Shown here one piece after another: positions 1 through 59,612 of a stretch of DNA of 64,000 bases. A program made the translations under genes and the position numbers. This DNA comes from Bacteroidota bacterium (GTDB taxonomy: Bacteria; Bacteroidota; Bacteroidia; Bacteroidales; FEN-979). Position 1 is the first letter of the stretch, and each line of letters starts with the position of its first letter. The DNA lies in NCBI GenBank assembly GCA_026391355.1, contig JAPLDH010000056.1, positions 1 to 64,000 of the forward strand, in the 5' to 3' direction. The notes beneath the pieces are model-generated. The model was not told where the DNA came from and did not search any database. It worked only from the letters and a program-made list of their open reading frames with translations.

Positions 1-2
1 AG

Positions 3-122
3 TTCAAGTCTTTCACAGGAGCTGAGTCTTTTGCAATCCTGCGATCGGTCATCGATACTGCTATTAAAAATAACCTGAACCCTTTGCATTCCCTTTCCGA
101 AATTAATGCCCTATCTTTGTAA
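3..122 (+). CDS. 3' end of an interrupted ORF, possibly a transposase C-terminus
   Basis: An open frame enters from the left edge and stops with TAA at 120-122, giving 39 residues. The tail has the pattern of an aligned C-terminal helix (FAILRSVIDTAIKNNLNPLH), which resembles the end of IS66-type transposases, where a helix with a similar Ile-Arg-x-Val-Ile-x-Thr-Ala pattern precedes the stop. The 5' part lies outside the window, so neither the family nor the start can be confirmed. If correct, an insertion sequence abuts the left end of the polysaccharide cluster, which would fit an acquired locus. Confidence 0.35.
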   Translation, partial: FKSFTGAESFAILRSVIDTAIKNNLNPLHSLSEINALSL

Positions 123-127
123 GGGGT

Positions 128-176
128 GAATAGTTACAAAATACAAAGTACAAAATGCAAATGTACTAAAAAAAAT
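128..176. repeat. AT-rich imperfect tandem repeat (acaaaatac / acaaagtac units)
   Basis: Just after the truncated first ORF there are imperfect repeats of a 9-10 nt unit (ACAAAATAC, AAAGTAC, AAAATGCAA). The same AAAATGCAAAATAC wording recurs near 35203 and 36657, so this is one member of a dispersed family of low-complexity intergenic repeats. No gene is visible here. Confidence 0.5.
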
Positions 177-237
177 AATTTGAGAACCTTGCCGGGTCTT
201 AAAGAATATCCTTCCCCTGTTTGTAAAATCATTTTAA

Positions 238-245
238 TAACTTTG
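238..245 (+). promoter_or_regulatory. Candidate Bacteroidota -7 element upstream of the polysaccharide cluster
   Basis: TAACTTTG matches the Bacteroidota -7 consensus TAnnTTTG. It lies about 100 nt before the first cluster gene. A TTTG sits at 220-223, but the spacing (14 nt) is shorter than usual for a -33 box, so only the -7 match is supported. Confidence 0.25.
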
Positions 246-344
246 CCTGATTTTCATCTTGAAAAAAAGGTACTGAGGCACTGATGCACAATGTGTTGAT
301 TATCTTTCTGTTCATAAACATTGAAGTTCACCTATACACTTTAC

Positions 345-2597
345 ATGAGAAAACCACGACTTTATATCATCAGTGTTGCTGTCCTGATTGTTTCTTTGTA
401 TATACTAATTCTGATGAAAGGGCCTACTCCAATGCTACTCCCTGCCCAGGAAGTTGACCTGAGCGGAAAGATTGATGGTGTACCCATCAGTGATGGTTTT
501 TTGTTCATCCAGGAAATTACCTCAAAAAAAGAGTACATTTATGGATTGGCGATTGCCTTTTCGGATCAAAACAGGATAAACACAAATGATAATGTCATGT
601 TTGTGCTTGATGATGCGAATAAAATGCTGTTCAACACTTCTTTCAATTCGAATACCATCTCCAAACCAAAATATTATTCATACAATTTCAACAAAACAAT
701 TCATGTCGGAAAAGGGCATAAATTTTACCTGTGCCTCTATACTCCTGACGGAACAGCAGGAAATTGCATTGCAGTTGCCAGTAAGGTAAATGGAATCCTT
801 GGCAGGATATACGCGAGCAAGCTGATCAATAATGATATTGCCTCAGCTTTTCAAAACAAATCAAATGGATTTTCAGAAAATTTTGGAGTTAAAACCTATG
901 AATCAGACTTTCATTACGCTTCCTTGATCAAAGGTATCCTCATCCTTCTGGTTATATTGATTGCAGTCCCATTTGCATTTCCTGAAAAATACAAAAAATT
1001 GATTTCATCTGTAAATCTGGTTCCGGAGAAGGTTTACCCGTTTCTGGCAATACCATTTGGTCTGGTACTCATATTCCTTACCCCTCCCGGTCAAGTTCCC
1101 GACGAAAAAACCCATTTTGTAAGGTCTTATCAAATATCAGAAGGGAACATTTATCACTTTGACAAGACTGTACCTGCTTCCATCCTCAATTTTGATACAT
1201 CCTTAAGCAGGCTGACACATAATATAAGTGAAAAAACCAACCGGGCAGAAATAAAAAATACAGGAAAGACGAAACTCGATTCCCATTCAAGGAAACAAAT
1301 CAGCATACTCGATTATGTGATACCTTACCTGCCCCAGGCGGCAGGGATTACATTTGCAAGGATCTTTTCTGATTCAGTACTGATACTTCTGTATGCAGGA
1401 CGCTTGTTTAACCTGTTAATTTCGGTGATCCTCATCTATTTTGCCATCCGGATAATACCGGTCGGGAAATGGGTTTTCTTCCTGCTCGGAATGATGCCCA
1501 TGGCACTGTTTATGAGCTCCTCCTTATCCTATGATGGTTCACTATATAGCCTTTCTTTTTTAATCATTGCCATTTTATTGCGTCTTGTTCTTGATCCAAT
1601 AAAAAAGACCGGTTCTTCTGACCTGGTAATACTGTTCATTCTCGCTGCAATGCTCACGCTGTGCAAACCACCCTATTTTATTCTTGCATCTTTATTCCTG
1701 TTGATCCCTGTAAAGAAGATCGGATCTGTAAAACGGTATATTTTGCTGATTGGCTGTTTGATTCTCACCATTGCCCTTTCCACACAAATCTGGGGTATTA
1801 CCCGAAAGTTATTTGAACCCAAACAAACGACCGCCAAAGTTAAAACTGTAACACAGCCCACAGCAGGAATAATCAAATCAGTTTCAACCAAGACCATAAA
1901 ACCCAAGCCGGATCCATCCCCAAAGAATGTCATCATCGAGTCCCCTTTCAATGCATCTAAGCAAAAAGAGTTTATCCTTTCTAACTTGCCAAGATATGCC
2001 GGAATAATCATCAACACCATGCTCGATAGCGACCGGAGATACAATTACCTGCTGACCTTTGTCGGGCTTTTTGCATGGGTTGATACCCCGCTTCCTGACT
2101 TTGTAATTTACATTTACCTTTGCTTGCTAATATTCACTGCATTGAGCATTGGAAACAATACTATTTCCATCAACTGGAAGCATAAATTGGTATTTCTCGC
2201 TATCATTGTGACTTGTTTTCTCCTGATTGAAACCGGATTGTACCTTTATTCGAATGAAATTGGCGCTAAAATTATCACTGCAGTTCAGGGTAGGTATTTT
2301 ATCCCGTTTGCCCCGTTGTTGTTCCTCCTTTTTTACAATATAAAAACAGAAGAAAAGCTGAATATGTTTTTTAGTACAGGAAGTTTTAAACCGCAAAAGA
2401 TTGTTAAACCGCAAAAGGTTGCTAAATCACAAAAGTTCATTAACGCAAAGAAACAGATCAAAACCATCGTTGAAAAGCAAACATATCCATTGGTATTTAC
2501 AAAAACACTTCAGTTATTAATAATTGCCACTGTTGTGTTTTCGTTTGTATGCACGGTTTATGTCATCTTAGTACGATTTTATCTTGTTACTATCTAA
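345..2597 (+). CDS. DUF2142 family membrane protein (predicted polysaccharide/cell-envelope membrane enzyme)
   Basis: A 750-residue polytopic inner-membrane protein. An N-terminal membrane helix is followed by an extracytoplasmic beta-rich domain (about residues 40-190), then many hydrophobic segments. The family signature is visible at residues 247-254 (PPGQVPDE, then THF), the DUF2142 hallmark. DUF2142 proteins resemble GT-C type glycosyltransferases and are common in O-antigen and exopolysaccharide loci; the reaction is not known. A lysine/glutamine-rich loop near residues 675-705 contains short QK-V repeats. ATG at 345 is preferred because the hydrophobic N-terminus begins directly after it; a TTG at 321 in frame would add eight residues. 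It is the first gene of a long plus-strand cluster and ends 23 nt before the GT9 gene. Confidence 0.8.
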   Translation: MRKPRLYIISVAVLIVSLYILILMKGPTPMLLPAQEVDLSGKIDGVPISDGFLFIQEITSKKEYIYGLAIAFSDQNRINTNDNVMFVLDDANKMLFNTSFNSNTISKPKYYSYNFNKTIHVGKGHKFYLCLYTPDGTAGNCIAVASKVNGILGRIYASKLINNDIASAFQNKSNGFSENFGVKTYESDFHYASLIKGILILLVILIAVPFAFPEKYKKLISSVNLVPEKVYPFLAIPFGLVLIFLTPPGQVPDEKTHFVRSYQISEGNIYHFDKTVPASILNFDTSLSRLTHNISEKTNRAEIKNTGKTKLDSHSRKQISILDYVIPYLPQAAGITFARIFSDSVLILLYAGRLFNLLISVILIYFAIRIIPVGKWVFFLLGMMPMALFMSSSLSYDGSLYSLSFLIIAILLRLVLDPIKKTGSSDLVILFILAAMLTLCKPPYFILASLFLLIPVKKIGSVKRYILLIGCLILTIALSTQIWGITRKLFEPKQTTAKVKTVTQPTAGIIKSVSTKTIKPKPDPSPKNVIIESPFNASKQKEFILSNLPRYAGIIINTMLDSDRRYNYLLTFVGLFAWVDTPLPDFVIYIYLCLLIFTALSIGNNTISINWKHKLVFLAIIVTCFLLIETGLYLYSNEIGAKIITAVQGRYFIPFAPLLFLLFYNIKTEEKLNMFFSTGSFKPQKIVKPQKVAKSQKFINAKKQIKTIVEKQTYPLVFTKTLQLLIIATVVFSFVCTVYVILVRFYLVTI

Positions 2598-2620
2598 AAA
2601 AGCCTGAGAAAAACCCTTAA

Positions 2621-3724
2621 ATGGTCGGTATCCAGAGAATCATTGATAAATATGTGGGATATCTCATTATCGTTATCCTGTTGGTTTTCAGAATCCTTCG
2701 TAAGAAGCGAAGTGGACGACGAAAATTCCTTGTTATAAAACTATGGGCACTAGGGGATTCAATCCTTACCCTTTCATTGATCAAAGGAATCAGGGAGTCA
2801 TTCAAAGAAAGTAACATTGATGTACTTTTGAGAACAAAAGTAAAAGATGTTTATGAATGTTATCAGGTTGACCACATTTATAATCTGGATTCGCCTGCTG
2901 ATTTGATGAAATTGGTTAGTAAGTATCGTTACTACGATGTTGTCTTCGATTGCGAGCCTTACCTGAACCTGAGCGCAATTCTTGCTTTTTTTCTAGGGAA
3001 TGAAAGGATCGGGTTTTCAAACCAGTTTCGTTCCCGGTTGTACACAAAAACTACCGGATTCAGTAAGCAACAACATATGATTCAGAATTACCTGGACATG
3101 CTCAGGAGCCTTGGATTGCAATATGATACACAGAATCTGGAAAGATTATCTGTCAGCGGTTTCGACAAAACAAAAGTCGATAATTACCTTTCCCGTTCTA
3201 CTCAGGGAAAAACAATTGTCGGGATTACACCGGGAGTGGCTGAATCTTCAAAAAACAGGATGTGGTACGAGGAACGGTTTGCTGAACTTGCAGACAGGAT
3301 CATTGATTATCTGGATTGTGATGTGATATTCATTGACAGTCCTGACAATAAAAAAATTATGGATGGTGTCATCGCCCTGATGAAACAAAAGCCGGTAAAT
3401 ACCTTGGGAATATTCACACTTAGAGAAACATTCCATCTCATTTCAAAATGTACTGTCTTTATCAGTAATGACACAGGTCCAATGCATATTGCCGCCGCGC
3501 AGGGCTGCAGAACAATTGGGCTGTTTGGCCCAAATACGCCCGTGCTATGGGGACCTTATGGAACAGGTAACATCGCGATCTATAAGACCTTGCTGAAACC
3601 TGCCATCCAGAATGATAAAGGGATCTTCAGGGAAGGGGACAGGGAGGGTTACATGGGAGGTATTTCTGTTGATGATGTGTTTGAGGCAGTTAAAGAATGT
3701 CTTGGAACGATAAACAAATATTGA
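2621..3724 (+). CDS. Glycosyltransferase family 9 (heptosyltransferase-like)
   Basis: A 367-residue GT9 protein of the ADP-heptose:LPS heptosyltransferase type. A hydrophobic N-terminal segment (about residues 8-27) probably anchors it to the inner membrane, which is unusual for soluble WaaC/WaaF enzymes. The first Rossmann domain starts with VIKLWALGDSILTLSL, the family nucleotide-binding entry. The second domain carries the conserved donor-site motif SNDTGPMHIAAA followed by GLFGPN. The family transfers a sugar from a nucleotide sugar in LPS core or O-chain assembly on the cytoplasmic face; the exact sugar cannot be read from sequence. It sits between the DUF2142 gene and a lipid-linked GT2 gene. 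Confidence 0.85.
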   Translation: MVGIQRIIDKYVGYLIIVILLVFRILRKKRSGRRKFLVIKLWALGDSILTLSLIKGIRESFKESNIDVLLRTKVKDVYECYQVDHIYNLDSPADLMKLVSKYRYYDVVFDCEPYLNLSAILAFFLGNERIGFSNQFRSRLYTKTTGFSKQQHMIQNYLDMLRSLGLQYDTQNLERLSVSGFDKTKVDNYLSRSTQGKTIVGITPGVAESSKNRMWYEERFAELADRIIDYLDCDVIFIDSPDNKKIMDGVIALMKQKPVNTLGIFTLRETFHLISKCTVFISNDTGPMHIAAAQGCRTIGLFGPNTPVLWGPYGTGNIAIYKTLLKPAIQNDKGIFREGDREGYMGGISVDDVFEAVKECLGTINKY

Positions 3725-3761
3725 AACTAATAAGGCTACTATTTTTCTACATCTATAAATT

Positions 3762-4691
3762 ATGGCTGAACCAAAACTAACAATAATCATCCCCTCATTC
3801 AACGAATCGAAGAGCCTTCAACATTTTCTTCCGGAAGTGATCGATATATGCAAGGAGAGAAACTGGGATCTGATCGTAATCAATGACGGGTCAACAGATG
3901 ATACAAGGGTTGTATTACAGGATTTTTATACATCAGGGGCTCTGACAATTATCCATCATAAGTTGAACCGGGGGTATGGTGCTGCAATAAAAAGTGGTAT
4001 ATGTTCATGTGAAACCGAGTATTGCATTACCATCGATGCCGACGGACAGCACATGCTGGAGGATATTGAGAAACTATTTGAATGTCTGCTTCAACGCGAC
4101 GCCGATATGGTGGTAGGATCAAGAAAAGGGTTACAGTCTTCCTCACTGCTCAGGTCATTCGGCAAAACTATGATCCGTACGCTGGCGAAAATGCTGATGC
4201 CGGTACCGATCCATGATATCAACTCGGGCATGAAGATTTACCGCACCACCCTGGCAAAAAAATATCTCTACCTCTCCCCCGACACAATGGCGTTCAGCGA
4301 TATGATCACCCTTATTTTCATCAATCATCGTCACCTTGTGATTGAAGAGCCGATCCATATCAGGGAACGGTTGCATGGGACAAGCACCATCGGTGTCCAA
4401 ACGGCTTTCCAAACCCTGATGGAGGTGATCAATATCCTGGTCCTGTTCAACCCGATGAAAATATTTTTGCCGTTGTCGGTGATTACGATCTTTGTAACTC
4501 TTTGCTGGGGTGTTCCATTGATCTTTCTCGGCAGGGGGCTCAGCATTGGTACCTTGCTGGGATTTATTTCCGGAATCCTTTTCTTTTTGCTCGGGCTCAT
4601 CGCCGAGCAACTCTCCCTGATCCGCAGAAACCAACAAATGCCGGAAGACAGACCAGTCAAGATCATCAGGAAACAAAATAAAAGTTCATAA
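3762..4691 (+). CDS. Glycosyltransferase family 2, polyprenyl-phosphate sugar transferase type
   Basis: A 309-residue GT2 enzyme related to dolichol/undecaprenyl-phosphate mannosyl- or glucosyltransferases. The N-terminal GT-A domain shows IIPSFNESKSL, INDGSTDDT and the metal-binding ITIDADGQH (DxD). Two hydrophobic hairpin helices follow (about residues 230-285), as in DPM1/GtrB-like proteins that load a sugar onto a polyprenyl phosphate at the cytoplasmic membrane. The product would be a lipid-linked sugar donor for membrane GT-C enzymes such as the upstream DUF2142 protein (inference). ATG is preceded by 37 nt of AT-rich spacer. Confidence 0.85.
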   Translation: MAEPKLTIIIPSFNESKSLQHFLPEVIDICKERNWDLIVINDGSTDDTRVVLQDFYTSGALTIIHHKLNRGYGAAIKSGICSCETEYCITIDADGQHMLEDIEKLFECLLQRDADMVVGSRKGLQSSSLLRSFGKTMIRTLAKMLMPVPIHDINSGMKIYRTTLAKKYLYLSPDTMAFSDMITLIFINHRHLVIEEPIHIRERLHGTSTIGVQTAFQTLMEVINILVLFNPMKIFLPLSVITIFVTLCWGVPLIFLGRGLSIGTLLGFISGILFFLLGLIAEQLSLIRRNQQMPEDRPVKIIRKQNKSS

Positions 4692-4818
4692 AGATCGCGT
4701 TAAAGAACTTAACCGGCTATTTCTTTTTTTTTAAGTACCGGGGTCTCACTTTTCTTTACGATTGGACGACTTTAGAGTTACGATTGAATTGTGAGTTTGA
4801 CCATTAAATTTTCAGGGC

Positions 4819-4989
4819 ATGTTTTGTATTCAGGTAATTCTTACTTTTGCTTCATTCTGGAGTCAGAACATTCAATCATCGTATGTAACTGAAGAGGCGA
4901 AGCTGTATAAACCTGTTAAAGAAGGATTATTAATAACGGATGTTTTTGATACAAGACAGGATTCAAAAAAAATTAATGTTCATTATTAA
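4819..4989 (+). CDS. Small hypothetical ORF, 56 residues
   Basis: The 316-nt gap between the GT2 gene and the export permease holds one open frame of 56 codons starting MFCIQVILTFASFWSQ. A short hydrophobic start is followed by a polar stretch (YVTEEAKLYKP, LLITDVFDTRQDS). It could be a small secreted or anchored peptide, or the remnant of a larger envelope protein. There is no recognisable domain and no clear ribosome binding site. A run of nine T at 4723-4731 upstream could mark the end of the previous transcript. Coding status is uncertain. Confidence 0.25.
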   Translation: MFCIQVILTFASFWSQNIQSSYVTEEAKLYKPVKEGLLITDVFDTRQDSKKINVHY

Positions 4990-5007
4990 TATGTACTAAT
5001 CTATCAT

Positions 5008-5820
5008 ATGTTATATATTAAAATCTTCTGGAGTTTTATTGCCACGCTCTATAAACAGAAGTATGTAATCGGACAACTCGTCAAACGCGATTTTCAGAAT
5101 AAATACCTCGGCTCTTACCTGGGCCTTCCATGGGCCTTCATCCAACCGGGAATGATCATTCTCGTTATGTGGTTTGCTTTTACCTATGGCTTTAAAATGA
5201 CTGTGACAGATAACGGACTTCCTTTTGTACCCTGGTTCATCTGTGGTATGATCCCATGGCTTTTTATCAGCGAAATATTAAGCTCATCGTCGGGTTCGCT
5301 TGTTGAATATAAATACCTGATCCTGAAAACCTCTTTTTGGGTCAGCATGATCCCTCTGGTAAAAATTTTCACCGGATTCATTATTCATTTTTTCTTTATC
5401 GTGGTCATTGCAGTTTTAATGATCTCAAATGGTATTTACCCCAGCCTTTACTGGCTGCAGATCATCTATTACCTATTTGCCACTTTTGTTCTGTTATTAG
5501 GGCTGGGTTGGTTGTTTTCTTCTTTAAATGTCTTTGTGCGCGACATCAGCCAGATCATCAATGTCGGCATTTCAATCATCTTCTGGGCAACACCCATTAT
5601 GTGGTCCTTCAGCAGATTACCGGGAAATATGAGATACATCGCACTGTTCAATCCGTTCTTTTATATCACAGAAGGGTACAGATTCACATTTTTGCAAAAA
5701 ACCTGGTTCTTTTTCCATTGGGAGATGACCATTTATTTCTGGTGTGTAACCCTGTTTATTTTTATCCTGGGTGCTACGGTGTTCAGGAAACTCACTCCCC
5801 ATTTTGCGGATGTATTATAA
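5008..5820 (+). CDS. wzm: ABC-2 type polysaccharide export permease (Wzm-like)
   Basis: A 270-residue permease with six predicted membrane segments. The N-terminal amphipathic stretch ends in VKRDFQNKYLGSYLGLPWAFIQP, the typical ABC-2 polysaccharide-exporter motif (RDf..rY..S.LG..W..i.P). It should form the homodimeric channel that moves lipid-linked O-polysaccharide or teichoic-acid-like chains across the inner membrane, powered by the Wzt-type ATPase encoded at 6272. The ATPase gene normally follows directly; here a 120-residue four-helix-bundle gene and flanking repeats are inserted between them. Confidence 0.9.
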   Translation: MLYIKIFWSFIATLYKQKYVIGQLVKRDFQNKYLGSYLGLPWAFIQPGMIILVMWFAFTYGFKMTVTDNGLPFVPWFICGMIPWLFISEILSSSSGSLVEYKYLILKTSFWVSMIPLVKIFTGFIIHFFFIVVIAVLMISNGIYPSLYWLQIIYYLFATFVLLLGLGWLFSSLNVFVRDISQIINVGISIIFWATPIMWSFSRLPGNMRYIALFNPFFYITEGYRFTFLQKTWFFFHWEMTIYFWCVTLFIFILGATVFRKLTPHFADVL

Positions 5821-5827
5821 TAATATA

Positions 5828-5879
5828 GGGTTAAGTGTTAAGTTTTAAGGGTTAAGACAAGGATTAAGTTTTAAGAATT
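5828..5879. repeat. Imperfect TTAAGTG/TTAAGTTT tandem repeat, left flank of the four-helix-bundle gene
   Basis: About four imperfect copies of a 7-12 nt unit (TTAAGTG, TTAAGTTTTAAGG, TTAAGACAAGG) fill the space between the permease stop and the next start. TTAAGTGTTAAGT at 5831-5843 is the exact reverse complement of sequence in the right flank (6239-6266), so the two flanks form inverted repeats around the gene. Confidence 0.75.
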
Positions 5880-6242
5880 ATGGCGTATAGGTCTTTTGAA
5901 GAGTTGGATGTGTGGAAACGTTCATGTAAATTGGCTGTTGAGATATATCTTACGTTGAAAGCCTGCAAGGAGTTTAGCCTGAGAGATCAGATGAACAAAG
6001 CGGCGGTTTCAATCTCTTCAAATATTGCAGAAGGGGCTGAACGCAATTCAGTAAAAGAGTTTATCCGCTTCCTGCACATCGCAAAAGGATCTTCTGCAGA
6101 ATTACGAACTCAACTTTATATAGCAGAGAAGATAGGAATTCTTACTGCCAAAACCACTCGTCCCTTAATTACAGAAACTAAAGAAATATCATCCATGTTA
6201 CAAGGTCTTATCAAATCAAAAGAACTCAAAACCAAACTTTAA
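5880..6242 (+). CDS. Four-helix bundle protein, 23S rRNA intervening-sequence (S23) type
   Basis: A 120-residue protein of the TIGR02436 / S23 family. The family pattern is plain: FEELDVWKRSCKLAVEIY near the start, then LRDQMNKAAVSISSNIAEG (residues about 39-57) and FIRFLHIAKGSSAELRTQL. Family members occur inside intervening sequences of 23S rRNA genes and, as free-standing genes, in many Bacteroidota; the Avd protein of diversity-generating retroelements has the same fold. Family members bind nucleic acid or reverse transcriptase; no enzyme activity is known. It lies between wzm and wzt, where nothing is normally found, and is bracketed by inverted TTAAGTG repeats, so it looks like a compact inserted cassette. 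Confidence 0.9.
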   Translation: MAYRSFEELDVWKRSCKLAVEIYLTLKACKEFSLRDQMNKAAVSISSNIAEGAERNSVKEFIRFLHIAKGSSAELRTQLYIAEKIGILTAKTTRPLITETKEISSMLQGLIKSKELKTKL

Positions 6243-6266
6243 CACTTAACACTTAACACTTAAAAC
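6239..6266. repeat. TTAACAC tandem repeat, right flank of the four-helix-bundle gene (inverse of the left flank)
   Basis: Three copies of a 7-nt unit (TTAACAC, ending TTAAAAC) begin inside the stop codon of the four-helix-bundle gene and end 5 nt before the wzt start. ACTTAACACTTAA here pairs with TTAAGTGTTAAGT in the left flank. Transcribed together, the flanks could form a stem with the gene in the loop. Confidence 0.75.
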
Positions 6267-6271
6267 TAACT

Positions 6272-7633
6272 ATGCCCTCCCCCGATTTCGCTATCCGTGT
6301 ATCCTCCCTCTCCAAGGTTTACCCTCTTTATAATTCACCCCGCGACCGCCTTAAGGAGGCGCTTCATCCGATGCGAAAGAAATATCATCATGATTTTTAT
6401 GCCCTTAAGGATGTCAGCTTTGAGGTTGAGAAAGGAGAAACTGTCGGTATCATCGGGCAAAACGGGAGCGGTAAATCCACCCTGCTCAAAATACTCTCAA
6501 ATGTACTGACCCCTACGAGCGGAAGTTGCATGATCAATGGCAAGGTTTCTTCCTTATTAGAACTTGGCACCGGTTTTAACCCCGAACTTACAGGGATCGA
6601 AAATGTCTATTTTAACGGAACCCTGCTTGGTTTTTCACGGGAGGAGATGGATGCCAAGCTGGATGATATTCTGGCTTTTGCCGATATTGGTGAATTTGTG
6701 CGGCAGCCGGTAAAAACTTATTCGACCGGAATGTATGTAAGAATGGCATTTGCTGTAGCAATCAGCGTTGATCCGGATGTATTGATTGTGGATGAGGCAC
6801 TCTCGGTAGGTGATGAACTTTTCCAGCGAAAGTGCTTCTCCCGGATAGATAAAATGCGCTCCATGGGAGTTACCATCCTTTTTGTATCTCACTCAGGAAC
6901 TACAATTGTTGAACTTTGCGACAACGCAATTTTATTTGACAAAGGTGAAAAAATGATTGCAGGTAAACCTAAACAAATTGTCGGCTACTATCAAAAACTG
7001 CTTTATGCTCCTGTTGAAAAACAGGAACTCATTCGCGAACAATTTCGTCAGAAGAATAGAAATTATCCAACGATACCCGGATATTCTGAAGAAATAATTA
7101 GCGCTAATTCCAAACCGGATGAACCGGCATTTGTATTGAAGGAATCCTTTGACCCAAATCTTAAGCCCACAAGCACAATTGCTTATGAATCCCATGGGGT
7201 TATCATTGATTCTCCTGCTGTGTTTACCTTAAGCGGAGAAATTGTGAACAATCTTATACGCGGGAATACGTATCGTTATGCATACAAAGTACTCTTCAAT
7301 AAAAGCGCATCAAATGTCCGGTTTGGCATGTTGATTAAAACTACTACCGGCGTTGAACTTGGAGGAGGATCTTCCGCTAAATCAAATTTTAATGGTATAC
7401 CTTACATTGAGGCAGGAACGATTTATTTGGTTGAGTGGCGGTTTCATTGTAACCTGAATCCTGGTGTATACTATTTAAATGCCGGTGTGACAGGTACTTT
7501 AAATACAAATGAAACCTATTTGCATCGCTTGATTGACATCGCCATGTTCAGGGTAATGCCAGATACAGAAAATATTGCAACAGGAATTATTGATTTCGGT
7601 TGCTATCCGGAAATTGAACTTCAGATTTCTTAG
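6272..7633 (+). CDS. wzt: ABC transporter ATP-binding protein for polysaccharide export with C-terminal substrate-recognition domain (Wzt-like)
   Basis: A 453-residue ATPase partner of the permease at 5008. The N-terminal ABC domain has Walker A GQNGSGKST (62-70), the signature YSTGMYVRMAF (150-160) and Walker B VLIVDE (170-175). Residues from about 290 to the end form a beta-rich extension like the Wzt carbohydrate-binding domain of E. coli O9a and O8 systems, which recognises the modified non-reducing end of the chain. Such a domain implies that export is coupled to a terminal modification; methyl-, sulfo- and acyltransferase genes downstream are candidates (inference). Confidence 0.9.
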   Translation: MPSPDFAIRVSSLSKVYPLYNSPRDRLKEALHPMRKKYHHDFYALKDVSFEVEKGETVGIIGQNGSGKSTLLKILSNVLTPTSGSCMINGKVSSLLELGTGFNPELTGIENVYFNGTLLGFSREEMDAKLDDILAFADIGEFVRQPVKTYSTGMYVRMAFAVAISVDPDVLIVDEALSVGDELFQRKCFSRIDKMRSMGVTILFVSHSGTTIVELCDNAILFDKGEKMIAGKPKQIVGYYQKLLYAPVEKQELIREQFRQKNRNYPTIPGYSEEIISANSKPDEPAFVLKESFDPNLKPTSTIAYESHGVIIDSPAVFTLSGEIVNNLIRGNTYRYAYKVLFNKSASNVRFGMLIKTTTGVELGGGSSAKSNFNGIPYIEAGTIYLVEWRFHCNLNPGVYYLNAGVTGTLNTNETYLHRLIDIAMFRVMPDTENIATGIIDFGCYPEIELQIS

Positions 7634-7674
7634 CATACAAACAAGCAACATTCCCTGACCAGACAATACCTTAG

Positions 7675-8409
7675 ATGAAAGTTTCTTTTTTAATTGTGGG
7701 AGCTCAAAAAAGCGGAACAAGCGCTTTATCATATTTCTTAACTCACCATCCCAATATATTCATTCCTCCTCAAAAAGAGCTCCATTTTTTTGATAATGAA
7801 AAAATTTATAAAACTACTCAAGTTGATTATAATCAGTATCATGATTATTTTCAACCAAAGGAGCAACAGATTATTATGGGAGAAGCAACCCCTATTTATA
7901 TGTATTGGAAACCGGCTGCCAGGAGAATTCATGAATATAACCCGGATATGAAATTAATTTATATCCTCCGTAATCCAATTGACAGAGCTTACTCAAACTA
8001 TGTTATGGAAATTAAACGGAACCAGGAATTTTTACCCTTCAAACTTGCTTTATTCTTTGAGCCAATAAGGCGTTTGTTAGCCTTTCCACTCCAAACCAGG
8101 ACCTATTCCTATTGTAACAGGGGATTTTATACAAAATGCATCAAAAGAATGCTAAATTTTTTTCCAAGTTCTCAAATGCTTTTTCTTAAAACGGAAGATC
8201 TGCTTTTGGATCATCTACAAACTTTGAAAAAAATATTTGAGTTTCTTGAAATTCCAGAATACGACAATATCGAACAAAAAACTATTTTTCCGAATGATTA
8301 TCTTCCTATGAAGAAGTTTGACAGACAAGTGCTTCGCAAAATATACTTGAAAGAGATTGAAGAATTGGAAAGAATGCTTTCCTGGGATTTATCAGATTGG
8401 AAAAAATAA
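7675..8409 (+). CDS. Sulfotransferase domain protein
   Basis: A 244-residue soluble sulfotransferase. The 5'-phosphosulfate loop is near the N-terminus (IVGAQKSGTSALSYFL) and the 3'-phosphate motif is at YILRNPIDRAYSNY, both hallmarks of PAPS-dependent sulfotransferases. It likely moves sulfate from PAPS to a hydroxyl or amino group of the polysaccharide or a lipid-linked intermediate. It follows wzt by 41 nt and precedes a giant protein that also begins with a sulfotransferase-like domain. Confidence 0.85.
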   Translation: MKVSFLIVGAQKSGTSALSYFLTHHPNIFIPPQKELHFFDNEKIYKTTQVDYNQYHDYFQPKEQQIIMGEATPIYMYWKPAARRIHEYNPDMKLIYILRNPIDRAYSNYVMEIKRNQEFLPFKLALFFEPIRRLLAFPLQTRTYSYCNRGFYTKCIKRMLNFFPSSQMLFLKTEDLLLDHLQTLKKIFEFLEIPEYDNIEQKTIFPNDYLPMKKFDRQVLRKIYLKEIEELERMLSWDLSDWKK

Positions 8410-8432
8410 ACAGACCAACATTAGATTAAAAG

Positions 8433-11400
8433 ATGAATAATAAATTAATTGTCGTACTAGGCATGCACCGTAGTGGCACAAGCGCTATTACCCGTGGGCT
8501 TCAGATTTTGGGTGTTCAGCTTGGTGAAAACCTTCATCCTGCGGGGTTTGATAACCCGAAAGGGTTTTGGGAAGATCGTGATTTTTTGGGTATTAACGAA
8601 GCATTGCTACACCGTCTTGGATCTGCTTATGATCGTTTAGGTTTGGCATGGTCGGATTTCGATAATGATTCGGTCATCAGCGCCCTTAAGAATAATGCAA
8701 TACAGCTTCTCTCTCAAAAGTTGGCAGAAAACCAAGGTATATTTGGATTTAAAGATCCACGAACTTGCAGGTTATTGGGTTTTTGGCGGTCTGTTTTTAA
8801 GATAACTGGCTGCGAAGTTTTTTACGTAATTGCATTGCGTAGCCCATTAAGTGTTGCATTATCCTTGACAACACGAAACAACATTCCATTTGAAAAGAGT
8901 TGCATCCTTTGGCTTCAGCATATGGTTCCCGCTGTAACTGATAGTGCGGGAAGCCCAAGAATCGTTGTCGATTATGATCTCCTAATGGATAATCCCTTAG
9001 AGCAATTGAAAAGAATTTCCTCGCGTTTTACATTAATGATGGACGACGAAAACAGCCCGATTGTCAATGAGTATGTTAATGATTTTTTGGAAAAGGGCTT
9101 ACGACACTCCATATCTACCGAAGCGGAGCTTTTATCAGATAGACGGATTCCACCTGATGTCGTGGAGGCTTATGAGCTTCTGCTGCAAGCGGCAAAAGAT
9201 AATATTTCCCTAAAATCAAAGGAATTTACTGAACATTTCGAAGCGTTAGCAGAACGGCTAAATGCATTTTCTACTGTTTTCTCCTACGCGAATTCACTTG
9301 AAGATGAACGAGTTAAAAGAGATCTGCTAATAATAAACTTAAATCAACAATTGGCTAAACAAGAACAACAAAATCAGGATAAAGAAAAGTTAATTTCACT
9401 TAAGAATGAAGACCTAAACCAAAAGAATGAAGACCTAAACCAAAAGAATGAAGACCTAAACCAATATAAAGAGAAACTGAGCCAAAAGAAAGAGGAACTA
9501 TATCAAAAGGATCAAACTCTGAATCATAAGAATGAAGAACTTAGTAATTATAATGTTTTACTTCAGGAAAAGGAAAAGGTTCTTCAGGATTTCAGCAACA
9601 TTATTCTCGAAAAAGAGAGTCTGATAATTACAAAAGATCATGATATTTTTGAATTATCGCATTCAAACTTGGAAAAAGATAAGTTAATTCAGGAGAAAGA
9701 AAGAGAGCTTTTTGAGGCATGGAATTCGATTCAAGAGAAAGATACTTTTTATACAATCGCTAATGAAAAACTCCGCGAAGCATCCTATATATTCAAAAAG
9801 AACGAAAGAACCATACAAAATCATGAACAAAAGATTGATGCTCTATATAAATCTTATTCTTGGAAAATTTCTAAACCTTTTCGTTGGTTATTTCCACGAA
9901 TGCTCACTTTTTTCTACTTTTTCTGTCCCTATGGTTCTAAAAGGTGGTTGATTGTAAAAACATTTCTCAGAATATTGGCACATCCCGGATTTTATGTTAA
10001 AATAATCAATACAAAAAATATTTCTGAATATATCAAGATATTGACCAATGCAAATTTAATCACGTATAATCAAGGTATTGAGAGTAAAAATTTAGTTTCT
10101 GAGAATATCGACCCAACTCTTCTTTTGCATAATATTACTATGAACACTGAGAACAATCTGGTGATTCCCAATTATTCAACGCCTACTGTATTATTTTATT
10201 ATGTAAGTGTTTACAGTGAAGAACGACTTTTCAATTCGGTAAGTTCAATTATTAGGAATACAATGGTACCATTCAAAATTATTGTTGCTGAAAATTCAAA
10301 ACATCTTAACTATAATTCTATCCAAAATATTGAAAGCATTGAAATATATGAGGTTCTTCATTACCTTTCAAAGTATCCGGCAATCAAATACATCTGTCTT
10401 CTGGATTGTGCAACCCTGATTCGACCAGATACTATAACTACTTGTGTTAGTACTTTGGAAATAGATAATGATTTTTCAATGGTGGTTCCGGCGATTTTAG
10501 ACAACCACGGAATGCTTGAATCTGCGGGTTCAATTCTATGGAGTGATGGTTCATATAGCTTATTGGGGAATAGCGAAGATCCATACAAGCCGGAATTTCT
10601 GTATCTCAGGGAAACTGATACAGGTAACCATTTTGCAATGGTCAGAAATGAAGTGTTTTGTCACTGGTTCAATTCTGAAACCATGGCATTTAATACCTGG
10701 CCATACCCTATTCATGACCTCTCGATGGTTATCCGTGGATCTCATGCAAAGGTGATTTACCAGCCTAAGGCACAAGTTGTTAATATTTCTCAATCGATCG
10801 AAATTCTTCCTGAAACTATTTCTTTGTTCTATAACAAATGGAAAGATCAGCTATTGAATGATCATGTACCTGATGCTAAGGAAAACTATTTTGTAGCAAG
10901 GGAAAGGGGACAGGGAAAGCAATACATGCTCATGATCGATCATTATGTTCCAACTTTTGATAAGGATGCAGGTTCCCGGACCATGAAGTCTTACATGGAA
11001 TTATTTTTAGAAAACAATATCATTTTGAAATTCCTTGGTGATAATTTCAATCCGGAGGAGAAATATGTAAACTATTTTCAACAAAAAGGAATTGAAATTC
11101 TTCACGGAGAATATTACGAAAAAAACTGGCTGCAGTGGTTGAAAAAATACGGGAATTTGTTTAATTATGTTTTCTTAAGCAGGCCGGCAATTGCAATTAA
11201 ATATATTGATATCCTCAAAGAATCTACAAATGCCAAAATCTTTTTTTATGGGCACGATCTTCATTATTTACGGGAATTCCGGCAATACCAATTGGAAAAA
11301 AAGGAGGAGTTGCTTAAGGGCGCAATGAAATCAAAAGAGATCGAGCAGAAGTTATTTGAATTTGTGGATTTTATTTATTATCCTTCACAGGCTGAGATTG

Positions 11401-14114
11401 ACATTATTTATAAAGAGTTCAAAATAAAAGGAAAAGCCCGTAAAATTGTTCCTTACATTTTTGATGAATTCTTGAAACCGGATTATCATTTCGATGAAAG
11501 AAAAGATATTTTATTCGTTGGAGGTTTTTACCATCAGCCTAATTGTGATGCTATGCTATGGTTCCTTGTGGAGATTTTTCCTGCAATCAATAAATCTATA
11601 CCTGGCATTAAACTTTACATTGCCGGTTCAAATCCAACGGAAGAGATAAAATCAAAAGTTGCGGACAACATTATTGTGACCGGTTATCTTTCCGATGAGG
11701 AATTAAAACAACTCTATAAAAAATGCAGGCTTGTTGTTGCTCCATTGCGTTTTGGAGCAGGAATAAAAGGGAAGATCGTGGAGGCTATGTATTGCGGTCT
11801 TCCAGTTATAACGACATCCATTGGCGCTGAAGGATTAACCGGTTCTGAAACTTTGCTTACCATCGCAGATAATGCTGAAGACTTCGCACAACAAGTAACC
11901 CTACTCTACTCTGATGAAAAAATATTAAAAAAAGTTTCACTCGATTCATTTGAATATGTAAAAGCCAATTTCTCAAAAGAGAAAGCCTATTCAATCATCC
12001 GGCAAGACCTGGTTCCCTGTCCTGATTATTTTAACTGCAAACCCATACCTTCTGCAAAAATCTTATTTGTCTCTCATGATGCAAATTTAGGTGGTGCCCA
12101 GTTTCTTCTACTTTCGATGCTCCGATGGTTCAAAGCACATACAGCCATTGATATACGAATAATGTGTAACAATGGTGGGATATTGCTGGATAAGTTCAAG
12201 GAGATCACCGAAACAATAGTTTATTCAGATCTTGAAAACACATACCAATCAAAAAAAGAGAGGGAATCTGTAATTCTTACCTTTTGCAATGGAATACCTG
12301 ATCTCATTTATGGCAATACAGTTGCAGCCGGCAAGAGTTATAGTTTATTGAAAGCTTTCGGTGTTCCCATTTTGACTCATGTGCATGAATTGCAAATGAG
12401 TATTGATCATTATGCTGGTGATTTTATTGATGATGTTATTCGAAACAGTCAGTTCTTTATTGCTGCATCTAATGCTGTTGCTGAAAACCTTAATAATTCT
12501 TTAAAGATCGAACAGGGAAAGATCAAGGTTATCTATGAATACATAGAAGATGTTGTAGTGCCTTCTATAACATTTAAAGCCAAAACTGCCTTGCGGAGAA
12601 AACTGGGGCTTGATGAAAAGAAATTTCTTATTTTCGGATGCGGAGTTGCTCTTTTCTGGCGGAAAGGCGGGGACCTGTTTATAGATGTTGCAAATAAGTT
12701 AAAAAACGAAGGTCTTGATAATTTGCACTTTTATTGGATTGGCACGTTTGATGAACTGGAAAAAGACACTCCATTTGGTACATGGGTTGACCAGCTTCAA
12801 TTGATAAAAAAATGGGAACTTGACAAATATATTACATTCCTCGGCAGAAAAGACAATGTAATGGAATACCTCAGGGCCGGAGATGTTTTTTTGCTGCCAT
12901 CACGGGAAGATCCGTTTCCTTTGGTTTGTCTCGAAGCCGCCCAGAAAGGGCTCCCTGTCATTTGCTTCAGGGATGCAGGAGGAATGCCTGAATTTGTTGA
13001 AGAAGACGCAGGTTTCGTTGTTCCTTTTGAAGATACCAGTGCCATGGCCGAAAGAATTGTTACCCTGCAAAACGATCCCGAATTGCTTTCCCGGCTTGGG
13101 AATACTGCGAAGGAAAAAGTCAAATCCAGGCATACCATTTCTATTACCCTGCCCAAAATTTTATCAACATGTAGAACTATTGCCGGTAAAAATCCAATGA
13201 TATCCGTCATTGTGCCAAATTATAATTATGGGAGATTCTTGGAAAAACGGTTGGAAAGTATTTCCAGGCAGACCTTCCAGGATTTTGAACTTATCATCCT
13301 CGATGATGCATCAGAGGATAACAGCCTCGAAGTGATTAACAGGTTCTCATCGATGCATGAAACTCAAATGTTTTTCAATCAGAACAACAGCGGCTCAGTA
13401 TTTAAACAATGGTACAAAGGATTGTCACTGGCTAAAGCAGAAATTATCTGGGTGGCTGAAGCGGATGATCTTTCGGAACCTGATTTCCTGGAAAAGATGC
13501 TTCCATTAATGAACGATCCTGAAGTGAATCTTGCCTACTGCAATTCGCATGTTATTGATGACAACGGACTGGTTACTAAAAATTTTTACCTTAATACAGG
13601 ATGGTATGACAACTTACCGAGAGGAAATAAATGGTGGAACAGTTATATCAATAACGGGCATGTTGAAATGAATGGTGGACTTGCTGTTAAGAATATCATT
13701 CCCAATGCAAATGCGGTTCTGATAAGGAAGTCATCGATCTTGAATATAAATACAAATGAACTATTTTCATACAGATGTTGTGGTGACTGGTACATTTACA
13801 TGAACAGCATAAAAGTCGGGAAAATTGCTTATAATTCCTTATCCTTAAATTATCAAAGGCGTCATAAGAATTCAGTCGTTGGTAAAAGTGTAAATTCTGC
13901 TTCCGAGACAATTCCGGAATACTTTAGAATCCACAAATTTGCCATTGAAAACTTTTTTCTGGAAAAAGAAACGTTCGAAAAACAAGCTGATTTTGTGCTT
14001 CGCGATTTGCGTGGGTTATGGCCGGGCGTAAAAGATAAAGTGTATGACGGATTATATGATATTCATGAACTTCAGCGTTGTTTTATAAATAAATTTCATC
14101 CCACTCAAACCTGA
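8433..14114 (+). CDS. Giant multidomain protein: sulfotransferase-like, coiled coil and four glycosyltransferase-like modules
   Basis: One uninterrupted frame of 1893 residues. Residues 1-290 are sulfotransferase-like (VLGMHRSGTSAITRGL loop). About 300-470 is a charged coiled coil, including three identical 7-residue repeats. A hydrophobic/basic patch near 480-520 may touch the membrane. From about 584 to 815 is a GT2-like domain without a clear DxD, possibly inactive. About 829-1195 is a GT4-type domain (MIDHYVPTFDKDAG; later FVGGFYHQPN and APLRFGAGIKGKIVEAM). About 1207-1580 is a second GT4 domain (FVSHDANLGGAQ; PSREDPFPLVCLEA). From 1589 to the end is an intact GT2 domain (SVIVPNYNYGRFL, LDDASEDNS, EADD). 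It probably builds a repeat unit by several linked transfers and sulfates it; acceptors are unknown. Confidence 0.85.
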   Translation: MNNKLIVVLGMHRSGTSAITRGLQILGVQLGENLHPAGFDNPKGFWEDRDFLGINEALLHRLGSAYDRLGLAWSDFDNDSVISALKNNAIQLLSQKLAENQGIFGFKDPRTCRLLGFWRSVFKITGCEVFYVIALRSPLSVALSLTTRNNIPFEKSCILWLQHMVPAVTDSAGSPRIVVDYDLLMDNPLEQLKRISSRFTLMMDDENSPIVNEYVNDFLEKGLRHSISTEAELLSDRRIPPDVVEAYELLLQAAKDNISLKSKEFTEHFEALAERLNAFSTVFSYANSLEDERVKRDLLIINLNQQLAKQEQQNQDKEKLISLKNEDLNQKNEDLNQKNEDLNQYKEKLSQKKEELYQKDQTLNHKNEELSNYNVLLQEKEKVLQDFSNIILEKESLIITKDHDIFELSHSNLEKDKLIQEKERELFEAWNSIQEKDTFYTIANEKLREASYIFKKNERTIQNHEQKIDALYKSYSWKISKPFRWLFPRMLTFFYFFCPYGSKRWLIVKTFLRILAHPGFYVKIINTKNISEYIKILTNANLITYNQGIESKNLVSENIDPTLLLHNITMNTENNLVIPNYSTPTVLFYYVSVYSEERLFNSVSSIIRNTMVPFKIIVAENSKHLNYNSIQNIESIEIYEVLHYLSKYPAIKYICLLDCATLIRPDTITTCVSTLEIDNDFSMVVPAILDNHGMLESAGSILWSDGSYSLLGNSEDPYKPEFLYLRETDTGNHFAMVRNEVFCHWFNSETMAFNTWPYPIHDLSMVIRGSHAKVIYQPKAQVVNISQSIEILPETISLFYNKWKDQLLNDHVPDAKENYFVARERGQGKQYMLMIDHYVPTFDKDAGSRTMKSYMELFLENNIILKFLGDNFNPEEKYVNYFQQKGIEILHGEYYEKNWLQWLKKYGNLFNYVFLSRPAIAIKYIDILKESTNAKIFFYGHDLHYLREFRQYQLEKKEELLKGAMKSKEIEQKLFEFVDFIYYPSQAEIDIIYKEFKIKGKARKIVPYIFDEFLKPDYHFDERKDILFVGGFYHQPNCDAMLWFLVEIFPAINKSIPGIKLYIAGSNPTEEIKSKVADNIIVTGYLSDEELKQLYKKCRLVVAPLRFGAGIKGKIVEAMYCGLPVITTSIGAEGLTGSETLLTIADNAEDFAQQVTLLYSDEKILKKVSLDSFEYVKANFSKEKAYSIIRQDLVPCPDYFNCKPIPSAKILFVSHDANLGGAQFLLLSMLRWFKAHTAIDIRIMCNNGGILLDKFKEITETIVYSDLENTYQSKKERESVILTFCNGIPDLIYGNTVAAGKSYSLLKAFGVPILTHVHELQMSIDHYAGDFIDDVIRNSQFFIAASNAVAENLNNSLKIEQGKIKVIYEYIEDVVVPSITFKAKTALRRKLGLDEKKFLIFGCGVALFWRKGGDLFIDVANKLKNEGLDNLHFYWIGTFDELEKDTPFGTWVDQLQLIKKWELDKYITFLGRKDNVMEYLRAGDVFLLPSREDPFPLVCLEAAQKGLPVICFRDAGGMPEFVEEDAGFVVPFEDTSAMAERIVTLQNDPELLSRLGNTAKEKVKSRHTISITLPKILSTCRTIAGKNPMISVIVPNYNYGRFLEKRLESISRQTFQDFELIILDDASEDNSLEVINRFSSMHETQMFFNQNNSGSVFKQWYKGLSLAKAEIIWVAEADDLSEPDFLEKMLPLMNDPEVNLAYCNSHVIDDNGLVTKNFYLNTGWYDNLPRGNKWWNSYINNGHVEMNGGLAVKNIIPNANAVLIRKSSILNINTNELFSYRCCGDWYIYMNSIKVGKIAYNSLSLNYQRRHKNSVVGKSVNSASETIPEYFRIHKFAIENFFLEKETFEKQADFVLRDLRGLWPGVKDKVYDGLYDIHELQRCFINKFHPTQT
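9402..9464 (+). repeat. Three exact 21-bp tandem repeats inside the giant gene
   Basis: The unit AAGAATGAAGACCTAAACCA plus A occurs three times head to tail at 9402, 9423 and 9444 with no differences. It encodes three copies of a 7-residue heptad (NEDLNQK type) in the coiled coil, so copy changes would lengthen or shorten the coil by exact heptads while keeping the frame. Perfect identity suggests recent expansion. Confidence 0.9.
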
Positions 14115-36649: not shown

Positions 36650-36656
36650 GCAGGAA

Positions 36657-36735
36657 TTCAAAATGCAAAATGCAAAATACAAAAATCAAAATTACTCGTG
36701 CCTGGTGCCTCATGCCTAATGCCTAATTACGACGA
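36657..36735. repeat. AAAATGCAAAATAC and TGCCTAATGCC repeats before pyk
   Basis: An AAAATGC-unit run is followed by an imperfect GTGCCTGGTGCCTCATGCC run with drifting 7-8 nt units that ends 4 nt before the pyruvate kinase ATG. The repeat fills the whole ATPase-pyk junction. Confidence 0.65.
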
Positions 36736-38154: not shown

Positions 38155-38243
38155 GAGCGAGGGATCAAGGGAGCGAGGGATGGGTTTGTAATATGTGACC
38201 ATTTTCCAACTCACCAGTTCGCAAGTTCACCAGTTCACCAGTT
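38155..38243. repeat. GAGCGAGGGAT and CACCAGTT repeats between convergent genes
   Basis: Two low-complexity runs lie between pyk and the minus-strand gene: GGAGCGAGGGATCAAG twice, then ACTCACCAGTTCGCAAGTTC with repeated CACCAGTT units. The second run extends into the coding region at 38227-38243 and provides the last four codons and stop of the minus-strand gene. Confidence 0.65.
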
Positions 38244-43316: not shown

Positions 43317-43346
43317 TTCGTAACGCGTAACGTGTGACGCGTAACG
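43317..43346. repeat. GTAACGCGTAACG low-complexity repeat
   Basis: Imperfect CGTAACG / CGTGTGACG units directly follow the stop codon at 43316. The same vocabulary, on either strand, occurs at 53289-53320 and 56936-56966. Confidence 0.7.
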
Positions 43347-45769: not shown

Positions 45770-45857
45770 AAACCAGTTTCCAGTTCCCAGTTTCCAGTTC
45801 CCAGTTTGCAGTTCACTATTCGTCCCTTATGACTAATGACCAATGACTAATGACTAA
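45770..45857. repeat. CAGTTTCCAGTTCCC and AATGACTAATGACC repeats
   Basis: Four or five CAGTT(T/C)CC units follow the helicase stop, then a run of (C/T)AATGAC(T/C) units leads straight into the dispersed element at 45858. The first unit overlaps the end of the helicase gene junction. No gene is present. Confidence 0.75.
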
Positions 45858-45939
45858 TCAATTGGTATGAACCCCAGGGTCCCGAATACTCGGGAGACCC
45901 AAATTCCATCCCGAGTACTCGGGACGGGGAATTAACCCA
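45858..45939. repeat. Dispersed intergenic element, copy 2 (shared ends with copy at 28956)
   Basis: It shares the opening TCAATTGGTATGAACCCCAG, the internal AAATTCC and the closing GGGGAATTAACCCA with the copy at 28956, but its variable segments are two nearly identical 16-bp palindromes: TCCCGAATACTCGGGA (45880-45895) and the perfect TCCCGAGTACTCGGGA (45909-45924). Confidence 0.8.
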
Positions 45940-45975
45940 AATAAAAATTTGAAAGATAATTAAGGAGAGAACCAG

Positions 45976-46010
45976 ATTACGACTTACAACTTACAACTTA
46001 CGACTTATCA
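45976..46010. repeat. TTACGACTTACAAC repeat at the end of the DUF2339 gene
   Basis: Five imperfect ACTTA(C/T)(A/G)A units end exactly at the stop codon of the minus-strand gene (46011). Same drifting-unit style as the other junction repeats. Confidence 0.65.
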
Positions 46011-47759: not shown

Positions 47760-47850
47760 TCAACACGGATTACACAGATAGCACAGATTGACACAGATAC
47801 ATGATTATCAAATATTTTAATCAGCGTATTCTGTGTAATCTGTGGTTGAT
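47760..47850. repeat. GATTACACAGAT repeat with 11-bp inverted arms
   Basis: Three imperfect (A)CACAGAT(T) units occupy 47764-47800; GATTACACAGA at 47768-47778 pairs perfectly with TCTGTGTAATC at 47830-47840. It lies between the NrfD and DUF2339 genes and could form a stem in the transcript. Confidence 0.7.
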
Positions 47851-53288: not shown

Positions 53289-53320
53289 ACGTTACGCGTT
53301 ACGCGTCACGCGTGACGATT
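53289..53320. repeat. ACGCGTTACGCGTCACGCGT repeat between grpE and dnaJ
   Basis: Three ACGCGT cores separated by TT or TC; CGTCACGCGTGACG at 53304-53317 is a perfect 14-bp palindrome. Same family as 43317 and 56936. Confidence 0.75.
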
Positions 53321-56887: not shown

Positions 56888-56966
56888 TGCAGGAATGCAG
56901 AATGTAGGAATGCAGGAGTGCAGAAAACGGATTTTCGTCACGCGTCACGTGTTACGCGTCACGATC
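56888..56966. repeat. GGAATGCAG and CACGCGTCACGTG repeats at a convergent junction
   Basis: Four AGGA(A/G)TGCAG units are followed by GTCACGCGTCACGTGTTACG units. Both families recur nearby (58008-58134 and 53289-53320). The second run reaches into the 3' end of the minus-strand DHS-like gene. Confidence 0.75.
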
Positions 56967-57977: not shown

Positions 57978-58007
57978 AATTCAATCGTTATTATCATGTT
58001 AGACAAA

Positions 58008-58134
58008 TGCTGGAATGTAGGAATGCAGTAATGCAGGAATTTAAAATTTTTTGTAAAAATAGATAAAAATCGATTTTATTCCACATTCCAAAATACTTAT
58101 CCAATTCCTGCATTCCTACATTCCTGCATTCAAC
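58008..58134. repeat. Inverted GGAATGCAGG repeats between the decarboxylase and DHS-like genes
   Basis: A run of GGAATGTAGGAATGCAG at 58008-58043 has its near-exact reverse complement (ATTCCTGCATTCCTACATTC) at 58100-58134, with about 56 nt of AT-rich sequence between. The two arms could form a hairpin of about 30 bp in the polycistronic transcript. Confidence 0.75.
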
Positions 58135-59528: not shown

Positions 59529-59569
59529 GGCGGTAGATTTTAAGATCTGTCGAAATCAGCTATTTGGTG

Positions 59570-59612
59570 ACAGAGTGACAAAGTGACAAAGTGACAAAGT
59601 GACAAAGTGATT
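59570..59612. repeat. GTGACAAA tandem repeat
   Basis: Five near-perfect copies of GTGACAAA (first copy GTGACAGA) occupy the start of a 367-nt gene-free gap (59529-59895). The rest of this gap is AT-rich and ends in the drifting AATGAC repeat. Confidence 0.8.

Follow-up and report, generated by a model that had tools for sequence, protein, structure and literature searches.

An S23-family gene between inverted heptamer arrays at a Bacteroidales wzm-wzt junction: a probable copy of a compact mobile element

The stretch of DNA analysed here, 64,000 nucleotides of a Bacteroidota genome (the window), carries between its wzm and wzt genes a compact unit that consists of an S23/IVP gene and two inverted arms (Table 1). 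S23 genes are small bacterial genes, best known from inserts in ribosomal RNA genes. The window gene matches the profiles PF05635 (E 1.7e-34, 118.6 bits against a curated cut-off of 33.8) and TIGR02436 (E 4.7e-34, 116.9 bits against a cut-off of 24), and its stop codon, at 6240-6242, lies inside the right arm. A first-pass annotation of this DNA had described an S23 gene flanked by inverted TTAAGTG repeats at this place, with a 13-bp perfect match between the flanks; both statements hold, the match being GTTAAGTGTTAAG on the left and CTTAACACTTAAC on the right. Tandem Repeats Finder reports heptamer arrays on both flanks, and the arm pair is the longest of 12 inverted pairs (at least 20 nt, spacing at most 2 kb) reported in the window. 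The inverted flank score of the locus is 40; for 462 mispaired flanks from the same genome the 99th percentile is 32.8 and the highest score 42. By itself this score is strong, yet not unique, and it is the class-wide flank result that decides. PADLOC gave no match, and a defence role was rejected on that result. Elsewhere in the window, an in-frame 21-nt tandem repeat of 6.5 copies (9402-9538) encodes a NEDLNQK-like stretch within a 1893-aa ORF (8433-14114).

Table 1. Features of the unit and of the host genes around it (positions in the window).
Feature	Position	Strand	Basis
Whole unit, S23/IVP gene with two inverted arms, between wzm and wzt	5826-6268		
wzm-type ABC permease (ABC2_membrane), host gene upstream of the unit	5008-5820	+	ORF and profile
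Left arm, heptamer array (GTTAAGT / TTAAGTG units), 30 nt	5826-5855	+	87% complementary to right arm; Tandem Repeats Finder
Second, weaker block of left-arm units, ATTAAGTTTTAAG, reaching the start codon	5859-5880	+	Direct repeat; Tandem Repeats Finder row 5831-5875
S23/IVP four-helix-bundle gene, 120 aa	5880-6242	+	ORF and PF05635/TIGR02436 profiles
Right arm, heptamer array (TTAACAC), 30 nt, includes the gene's stop codon	6239-6268	+	Inverted-repeat search; Tandem Repeats Finder
wzt-type ABC ATPase with Wzt_C domain, host gene downstream of the unit	6272-7633	+	ORF and profile

The window unit has an S23 ORF between complementary arms, as rRNA intervening sequences do, but it lies between wzm and wzt and not inside an rRNA gene: no Rfam family matched positions 1-12000 of the window at E 0.1 or better. 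Its flanks pair over 46 bp in the minimum-energy RNA fold, and flanks pair over at least 12 bp in the predicted folds of 87 of 99 elements, compared with 78 of 198 control windows. This pairing arises because of the arms and is hence no proof of processing or function. An exceptional fold of the whole element was rejected, since the window element taken alone folds in an ordinary way (z -1.31).

The genome from which the window comes (4.83 Mb, 81 contigs) contains 22 PF05635 genes over the cut-off. At these loci short tandem units lie to the left and their reverse complement to the right, and the unit mostly differs from locus to locus; GGCACGA, GGGACAT, GTCGTAA, GGTTAAT, GTAGGAAT and GGTGAACT are among them. 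When each left flank was aligned with its own reverse-complemented right flank, 18 of the 22 loci scored above the 99th percentile of the 462 mispaired combinations. Six exceed the corresponding threshold in direct orientation, L004 and L016 in that orientation only, and L014 and L019 show no flank relation above threshold, inverted or direct. A second IVP gene of the window's contig (L007, G000:C70:64786-65103) lies just past the window end and has GTCATTA-type arms. By eye, a shared leader of about TGACCTTTT, followed after some 10-12 nt by GATTAA and GAAAA, stands between the left arm and the start codon at L002, L003, L004, L009, L016, L017, L018, L020 and L022, and a stretch resembling it is found at about 63417-63445 of the window. 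This leader is possibly a promoter.

When one genome per species was scanned, 207 relatives were confirmed. The best 80 were named (53-80% identity), from Bacteroidales, Desulfobacterota, Verrucomicrobia, Planctomycetes, Nitrospira, Lentisphaeria, Gammaproteobacteria and others; as the best of 207, they lean towards the window's subfamily. Four (L085, L106, L108 and L150) were dropped for a truncated frame or N. Among the 76 usable loci of these best 80 of 207, 63 have inverted flanks above the 99th percentile of 760 same-contig control windows, 48 score above the highest control and 13 miss the threshold; in direct orientation 11 exceed the 99th percentile of controls. Compared with 414 other ORFs of the same contigs, 58 of the 76 exceed the 99th percentile, and a score of 40 is attained at 39 of the 76 and at 1 of the 414. 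Tandem arrays cover 18% of bases up to 150 nt from the gene at the named loci and 21% at the own-genome loci, compared with 1.3-1.7% and 1.3-2.7% farther away. The periods near IVP genes are mostly 7, 8 and their sums, and arrays are called on both sides within 150 nt at 33 of the best 80 of 207 and at 11 of the 22 own-genome loci. On plasmids, where 17 records contain a match, flanks were first examined for eight copies (seven from cyanobacteria, one from Riemerella), and all eight have an inverted score above the highest local control, although L285 does so barely (50 against 45) and its direct score is higher, 129. The survey of TIGR02436-type genes proposed in the first-pass annotation thus found inverted flanks to be usual. 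There was no match among 50,697 phage records at E 1e-5, so phage carriage was rejected.

Most copies seen lie at junctions between genes, in unrelated host operons (metK, ahcY, queA, tgt, cysN and sdhA were named by eye from translated ends). The idea that the window unit had "escaped" into a protein-coding operon is right about the intergenic location and understates it, since that is where most copies are. A four helix bundle gene between the genes for guanylate kinase and nucleotide adenylyltransferase is reported in the available text on Flavobacterium columnare (PMC5524665). The loci compared at the cas6-cas4 junction are L285, L286 and L290: two cyanobacterial plasmids have IVP units there, and in a Dolichospermum plasmid, with 99% identity over the matched parts, a gene-less palindrome of another kind occupies the junction. 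The S23 family is listed among genes newly associated with CRISPR adaptation modules (PMC10910872, available text), and insertion of units between cas6 and cas4 is a possible and simple cause of that association.

The arms belong to the gene. In a cross-arm test over 122 loci, the left arm of one copy is compared with the reverse-complemented right arm of another, a relation that orthologous flanks cannot fake. Pairs above a fixed score make up 0.7, 0.3, 5.8, 18, 49 and 78% of those in protein-identity classes of <30%, 30-40, 40-50, 50-60, 60-70 and >70%, respectively. Within the TTAAG-type subfamily, the arms of one copy match better than the arms of different copies, and over its 34 loci the true arm pairing sums to 1578, above all of 10,000 permutations (highest 1449). 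The rise of cross-arm similarity with protein identity, together with the advantage of true pairs over permutations, shows that the arms travel with the gene: arm sequence follows the gene rather than the insertion site, and the two arms of one copy change together.

Particular junctions show how patchy the occupancy is. In the comparison of wzm-wzt junctions that the first-pass annotation had called for, the pair found to be nearest to the window's (67% identity, in G004) lacks an IVP gene and has 49 nt between the two protein matches. G001 belongs to the same genus as the window's host. An IVP there, which shares 80% identity with the window's and has the same TTAAGTG arms, follows another wzm (27% identity), and the gene after this unit (L042) is not wzt; by eye it encodes a RhuM-like protein. 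The same arms behind a different wzm, taken with the gene-less orthologous junction, mark the window unit as mobile as far as sequence can tell. An IVP gene lies between wzm and wzt also in L038 and, by eye from translated ends, in L113 and L099. In a midpoint-rooted tree of 130 IVP sequences (L042, which takes the same place as L082, was left out), the five tips behind a wzm are scattered, with a common ancestor that spans 107 of the 130 tips, and this kind of site was therefore entered more than once. The junction of sdhA and sdhB behaves differently: an IVP lies directly upstream of sdhB at 9 of 37 such junctions read (in six of the nine the sdhA end is also visible), and these nine fall within a clade of 11, L172, L174 and L190 being represented in the tree by fragments. 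The site is therefore mainly inherited or re-entered from near relatives, and much of its distribution may be vertical descent. Several gene-less sdh junctions carry arrays or palindromes instead (by eye); those of G001, G006 and G023 look clean, with small palindromes at two of them (GATTACCTAATC in G023 and ATTAGGTAAT in G001).

That some junctions are common to a clade would also suit an operon gene that is useful to the host, retained for some cellular function and now and then transferred horizontally, with the hairpin acting as a regulatory or RNase III site. The protein is under purifying selection (dN/dS 0.037-0.144 in 10 of 14 IVP pairs with computable dS, dS exceeding 1 in some of the ten), and the neighbours are both co-directional with the gene at 52 and both opposite at 17 of 104 loci scored (binomial p 3e-5, with direction taken from a crude longest-frame caller). 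Against it stand the patchy occupancy of the sdh junctions (9 of the 37 read), the lack of relation among the host operons, and the gene-less copies, which insert too, one of them inside an IVP gene. We regard this explanation as improbable. The first-pass annotation had named two outcomes that would speak against its own reading, a uniformly conserved operon member or a lack of inverted repeats around other copies; what we find is a gene that is not a uniform member of the operon, and inverted flanks that are common around other copies.

Filled and empty alleles are seen in Nostoc plasmids that share three consecutive genes for hypothetical proteins, here called A, B and C, and that are 88-95% identical to pNsp_c over the matched parts. 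pC052_B, pC052_A, pNsp_b and p057_H are empty at both the A-B and the B-C junction, and no arrays were seen at these empty junctions. In pNsp_a, pC052_D and pNPM1, a unit with TCAGGAG/TCAGAAG arms lies between A and B and is 420 bp long (602 in pNPM1, which holds an additional insert). At the B-C junction of pNsp_c lies a different unit, whose arms are of GGGAAAA type, and the A-B junction of p057_A is occupied by another small gene. Units related to the 420-bp one at 78-81% DNA identity were seen at unrelated sites in plasmids of Aulosira, Trichormus and Scytonema, with one site common to the Trichormus and Scytonema copies, and the similarity among these relatives stops at, or a few bases from, the outer arm ends. 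The 420-bp unit is thus found at unrelated sites and has empty alleles, as a mobile element would. Degenerate and nested copies also occur. L305, a 170-bp copy, has lost most of the gene. In pNPM1 a gene-less palindrome of 182 bp, made of the same heptamers, interrupts the IVP gene, and a similar palindrome is present in pC052_B. A second copy related to the GGGAAAA unit of pNsp_c (79.5%) lies elsewhere in the same strain and is itself interrupted.

Our preferred reading, to which we give a probability of roughly 0.6, is that the window unit represents one copy of a widespread compact mobile element, about 420-500 bp long and built as arm, S23/IVP gene and arm. A compact mobile cassette had been suggested in the first-pass annotation, and sequence comparison supports it through the gene-less wzm-wzt pair, the same arms elsewhere and the filled and empty Nostoc alleles.

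Arrays of the same kind also occur without a gene. In the window, inverted AATGCAGG-type octamer arrays at 58006-58041 and 58103-58131, 61 nt apart with no gene between, look like a gene-less relative of the GTAGGAAT-arm units (L009). Another gene-less inverted pair, with unit CACAGATTACACAGAT, lies at 47764-47789 and 47819-47844, 29 nt apart, and further intergenic 7- or 8-nt arrays without an IVP are at 36655-36692, 38211-38243, 43319-43346, 45773-46007, 53290-53317, 56886-56963 and 59567-59910; several of these IVP-less arrays are built of units that also make up arms at IVP loci in other parts of the genome. No paired inverted arrays were seen in four 20-kb stretches drawn at random from the same genome. 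Gene-less arrays outnumber genes in several IVP-rich genomes, and 75 arrays were counted in ~758 kb of fifteen IVP-bearing genomes (five of the fifteen having none) compared with 3 in 313 kb of five IVP-free genomes. An apparent tracking of IVP number by array density (rho 0.60, p 0.018, 15 genomes) was discarded when it was lost at 20 genomes with IVP neighbourhoods masked (rho 0.33, p 0.15); in the 14 genomes of other families alone rho was 0.02 (p 0.95). Published heptamer arrays include 70 inverted GGGAATC pairs in X. campestris (PMC4692102) and TAACTGA repeats in Beggiatoaceae and five Bacteroidetes (PMC4679880). The arrays of Xanthomonas, Nostoc and Beggiatoaceae resemble IVP arms in being 7-nt tandem units between genes but, unlike IVP units, are reported in the available parts of these papers without a link to S23 genes.

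If the host itself made such intergenic arrays and palindromes, and IVP genes inserted into their hairpin loops, the arms would belong to the site. Such a model would account for the abundance of gene-less arrays in the window's genome and at many sdhA-sdhB junctions (by eye), for the small palindromes at the two clean-looking junctions, and for the position of rRNA intervening sequences in a 23S rRNA helix (PMC4990558, available text). It fits poorly with arm sequence that tracks protein identity across different sites, with copies at unrelated sites that share their arms and nothing outside them, with empty Nostoc alleles that have no array at the junctions, and with the 3 arrays in 313 kb of the IVP-free genomes. 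The cross-arm test and the empty Nostoc alleles disfavour this origin of the arms, and we would give it only a slim chance.

Another reading is an ordinary non-autonomous transposon, with the IVP gene as cargo and a resident IS transposase that recognises the inverted ends. It would explain the inverted ends and the gene-less and deleted copies, and Y1 transposases are present in 34 of the 41 genomes of our panel. One transposase would not, however, be expected to recognise by sequence the ends of units most of which differ within one genome, and five IVP-bearing genomes (G004, G013, G015, G019 and G037) have no Y1 match, an absence that is provisional in draft genomes. A target-duplication candidate, the 5-bp TTCTA of L294-L296, which stands at both ends in L294, was withdrawn because the element end of L302 likewise carries TTCTA. 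We consider such a transposon unlikely. MITEs and REP/BIME palindromes are also small, palindromic and mostly intergenic and have gene-less derivatives. Their ends are common across a genome and fit a known transposase, whereas at most IVP loci the unit is particular to the locus, and the gene belongs to the S23 family.

The protein itself is predicted with high confidence scores (pLDDT 96.1) to have the four-helix bundle fold of XCC0516 (2gsc; TM 0.82-0.88 by query) and BT_0352 (2rld; TM 0.76-0.80). The X. campestris homologue has been reported as a pentameric ring (PMC4990558, available text). Avd (4dwl) and the DGR ribonucleoprotein (8ub7) rank after 2gsc and 2rld in Foldseek (TM 0.71-0.78 by query; E 0.02 and above, probability 1.00), and phrog_3206 (Avd) matches the window IVP at E 1.4e-5. 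The window IVP and the Avd of diversity-generating retroelements thus share a fold and a distant sequence relation, but those retroelements have a reverse transcriptase and template and variable repeats, and the IVP copies examined show none of these alongside and have flanking arms instead. This relation to Avd had led the first-pass annotation to suggest a link to reverse transcriptases, and a driven element could be imagined in which IVP acts like Avd with a host-supplied enzyme. The window's genome does encode group II intron reverse transcriptases: of three RVT_1 matches, on contigs C57 and C63 and away from the window locus, two are of this type by curated cut-off and the third is a same-kind fragment below it. 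No reverse transcriptase lies in the locus of the window IVP, none is annotated within ~1.5 kb of the first eight plasmid IVP genes retrieved, and 19 of the 35 IVP-bearing genomes in the panel of 41 lack an RVT_1 match, among them G022 (21 IVPs, 85% complete), G011 (15, 96%) and G018 (14, 96%). G013, G015 and G037 lack both RVT_1 and Y1 matches. Since these are drafts, the absences are provisional; they nonetheless disfavour either enzyme as an obligatory resident helper. The suggested link is not supported, and we think a reverse-transcriptase-driven element very improbable, more so than any of the other alternatives.

The mobile-unit reading also brings the window into relation with the 23S rRNA intervening sequences of Coxiella and Leptospira that contain an S23 ORF. 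According to the available text of PMC4990558, these resemble the window unit in having the ORF in the loop of a stem, a length of about 430 bp and heptamers beside the ORF. The Coxiella sequence has three tandem heptamers just upstream of its S23 ORF, which strengthens the likeness that the first-pass annotation had drawn, and mobility of intervening sequences had been suggested earlier. They differ in lying inside 23S rRNA, from which RNase III excises the Coxiella one, whereas the present units sit between protein-coding genes and have an arm unit of their own in each lineage. The arm-gene-arm unit is probably the general form, and the intervening sequences of rRNA that bear an ORF its special, ribosomal case.

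How such a unit might move can be outlined. Its arms would form a long hairpin, either in host-operon RNA or in DNA that is single-stranded, and the gene would occupy the loop, much as it does in rRNA intervening sequences. The Avd-like protein, which is probably pentameric and ring-shaped, would bind its own arm stem and help the stem-loop to get copied or inserted at a new intergenic site. If one arm were copied from the other by fold-back, with slippage of the 7-8-nt units, both arms would change together and grow as tandem arrays. This scheme of hairpin, arm-stem binding, movement and arm writing is what we infer from the units described here.

A search of the open-access literature, with preprints and most subscription journals outside its scope, returned no paper in which heptamer arms are connected with S23 genes located outside rRNA. 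We offer a wider hypothesis, tentatively and at somewhat less than even odds, that S23/IVP units are overlooked, transposase-less mobile elements of many phyla, that each protein recognises its own arm hairpin, that fold-back copying both writes the arms and maintains their likeness, that the intergenic heptamer arrays of cyanobacteria, Xanthomonas and Bacteroidota are largely their footprints, and that copies which inserted into rRNA became the intervening sequences that carry an S23 ORF there. It raises a testable question, namely whether each IVP binds its own arms and not those of others. If true, a common orphan protein family, with 22 copies in this one genome alone, would gain a role, two old puzzles (the rRNA intervening sequences that bear an ORF, and the heptamer arrays between genes) would be linked, and a mobile element would be added whose ends differ between copies yet match within a copy.
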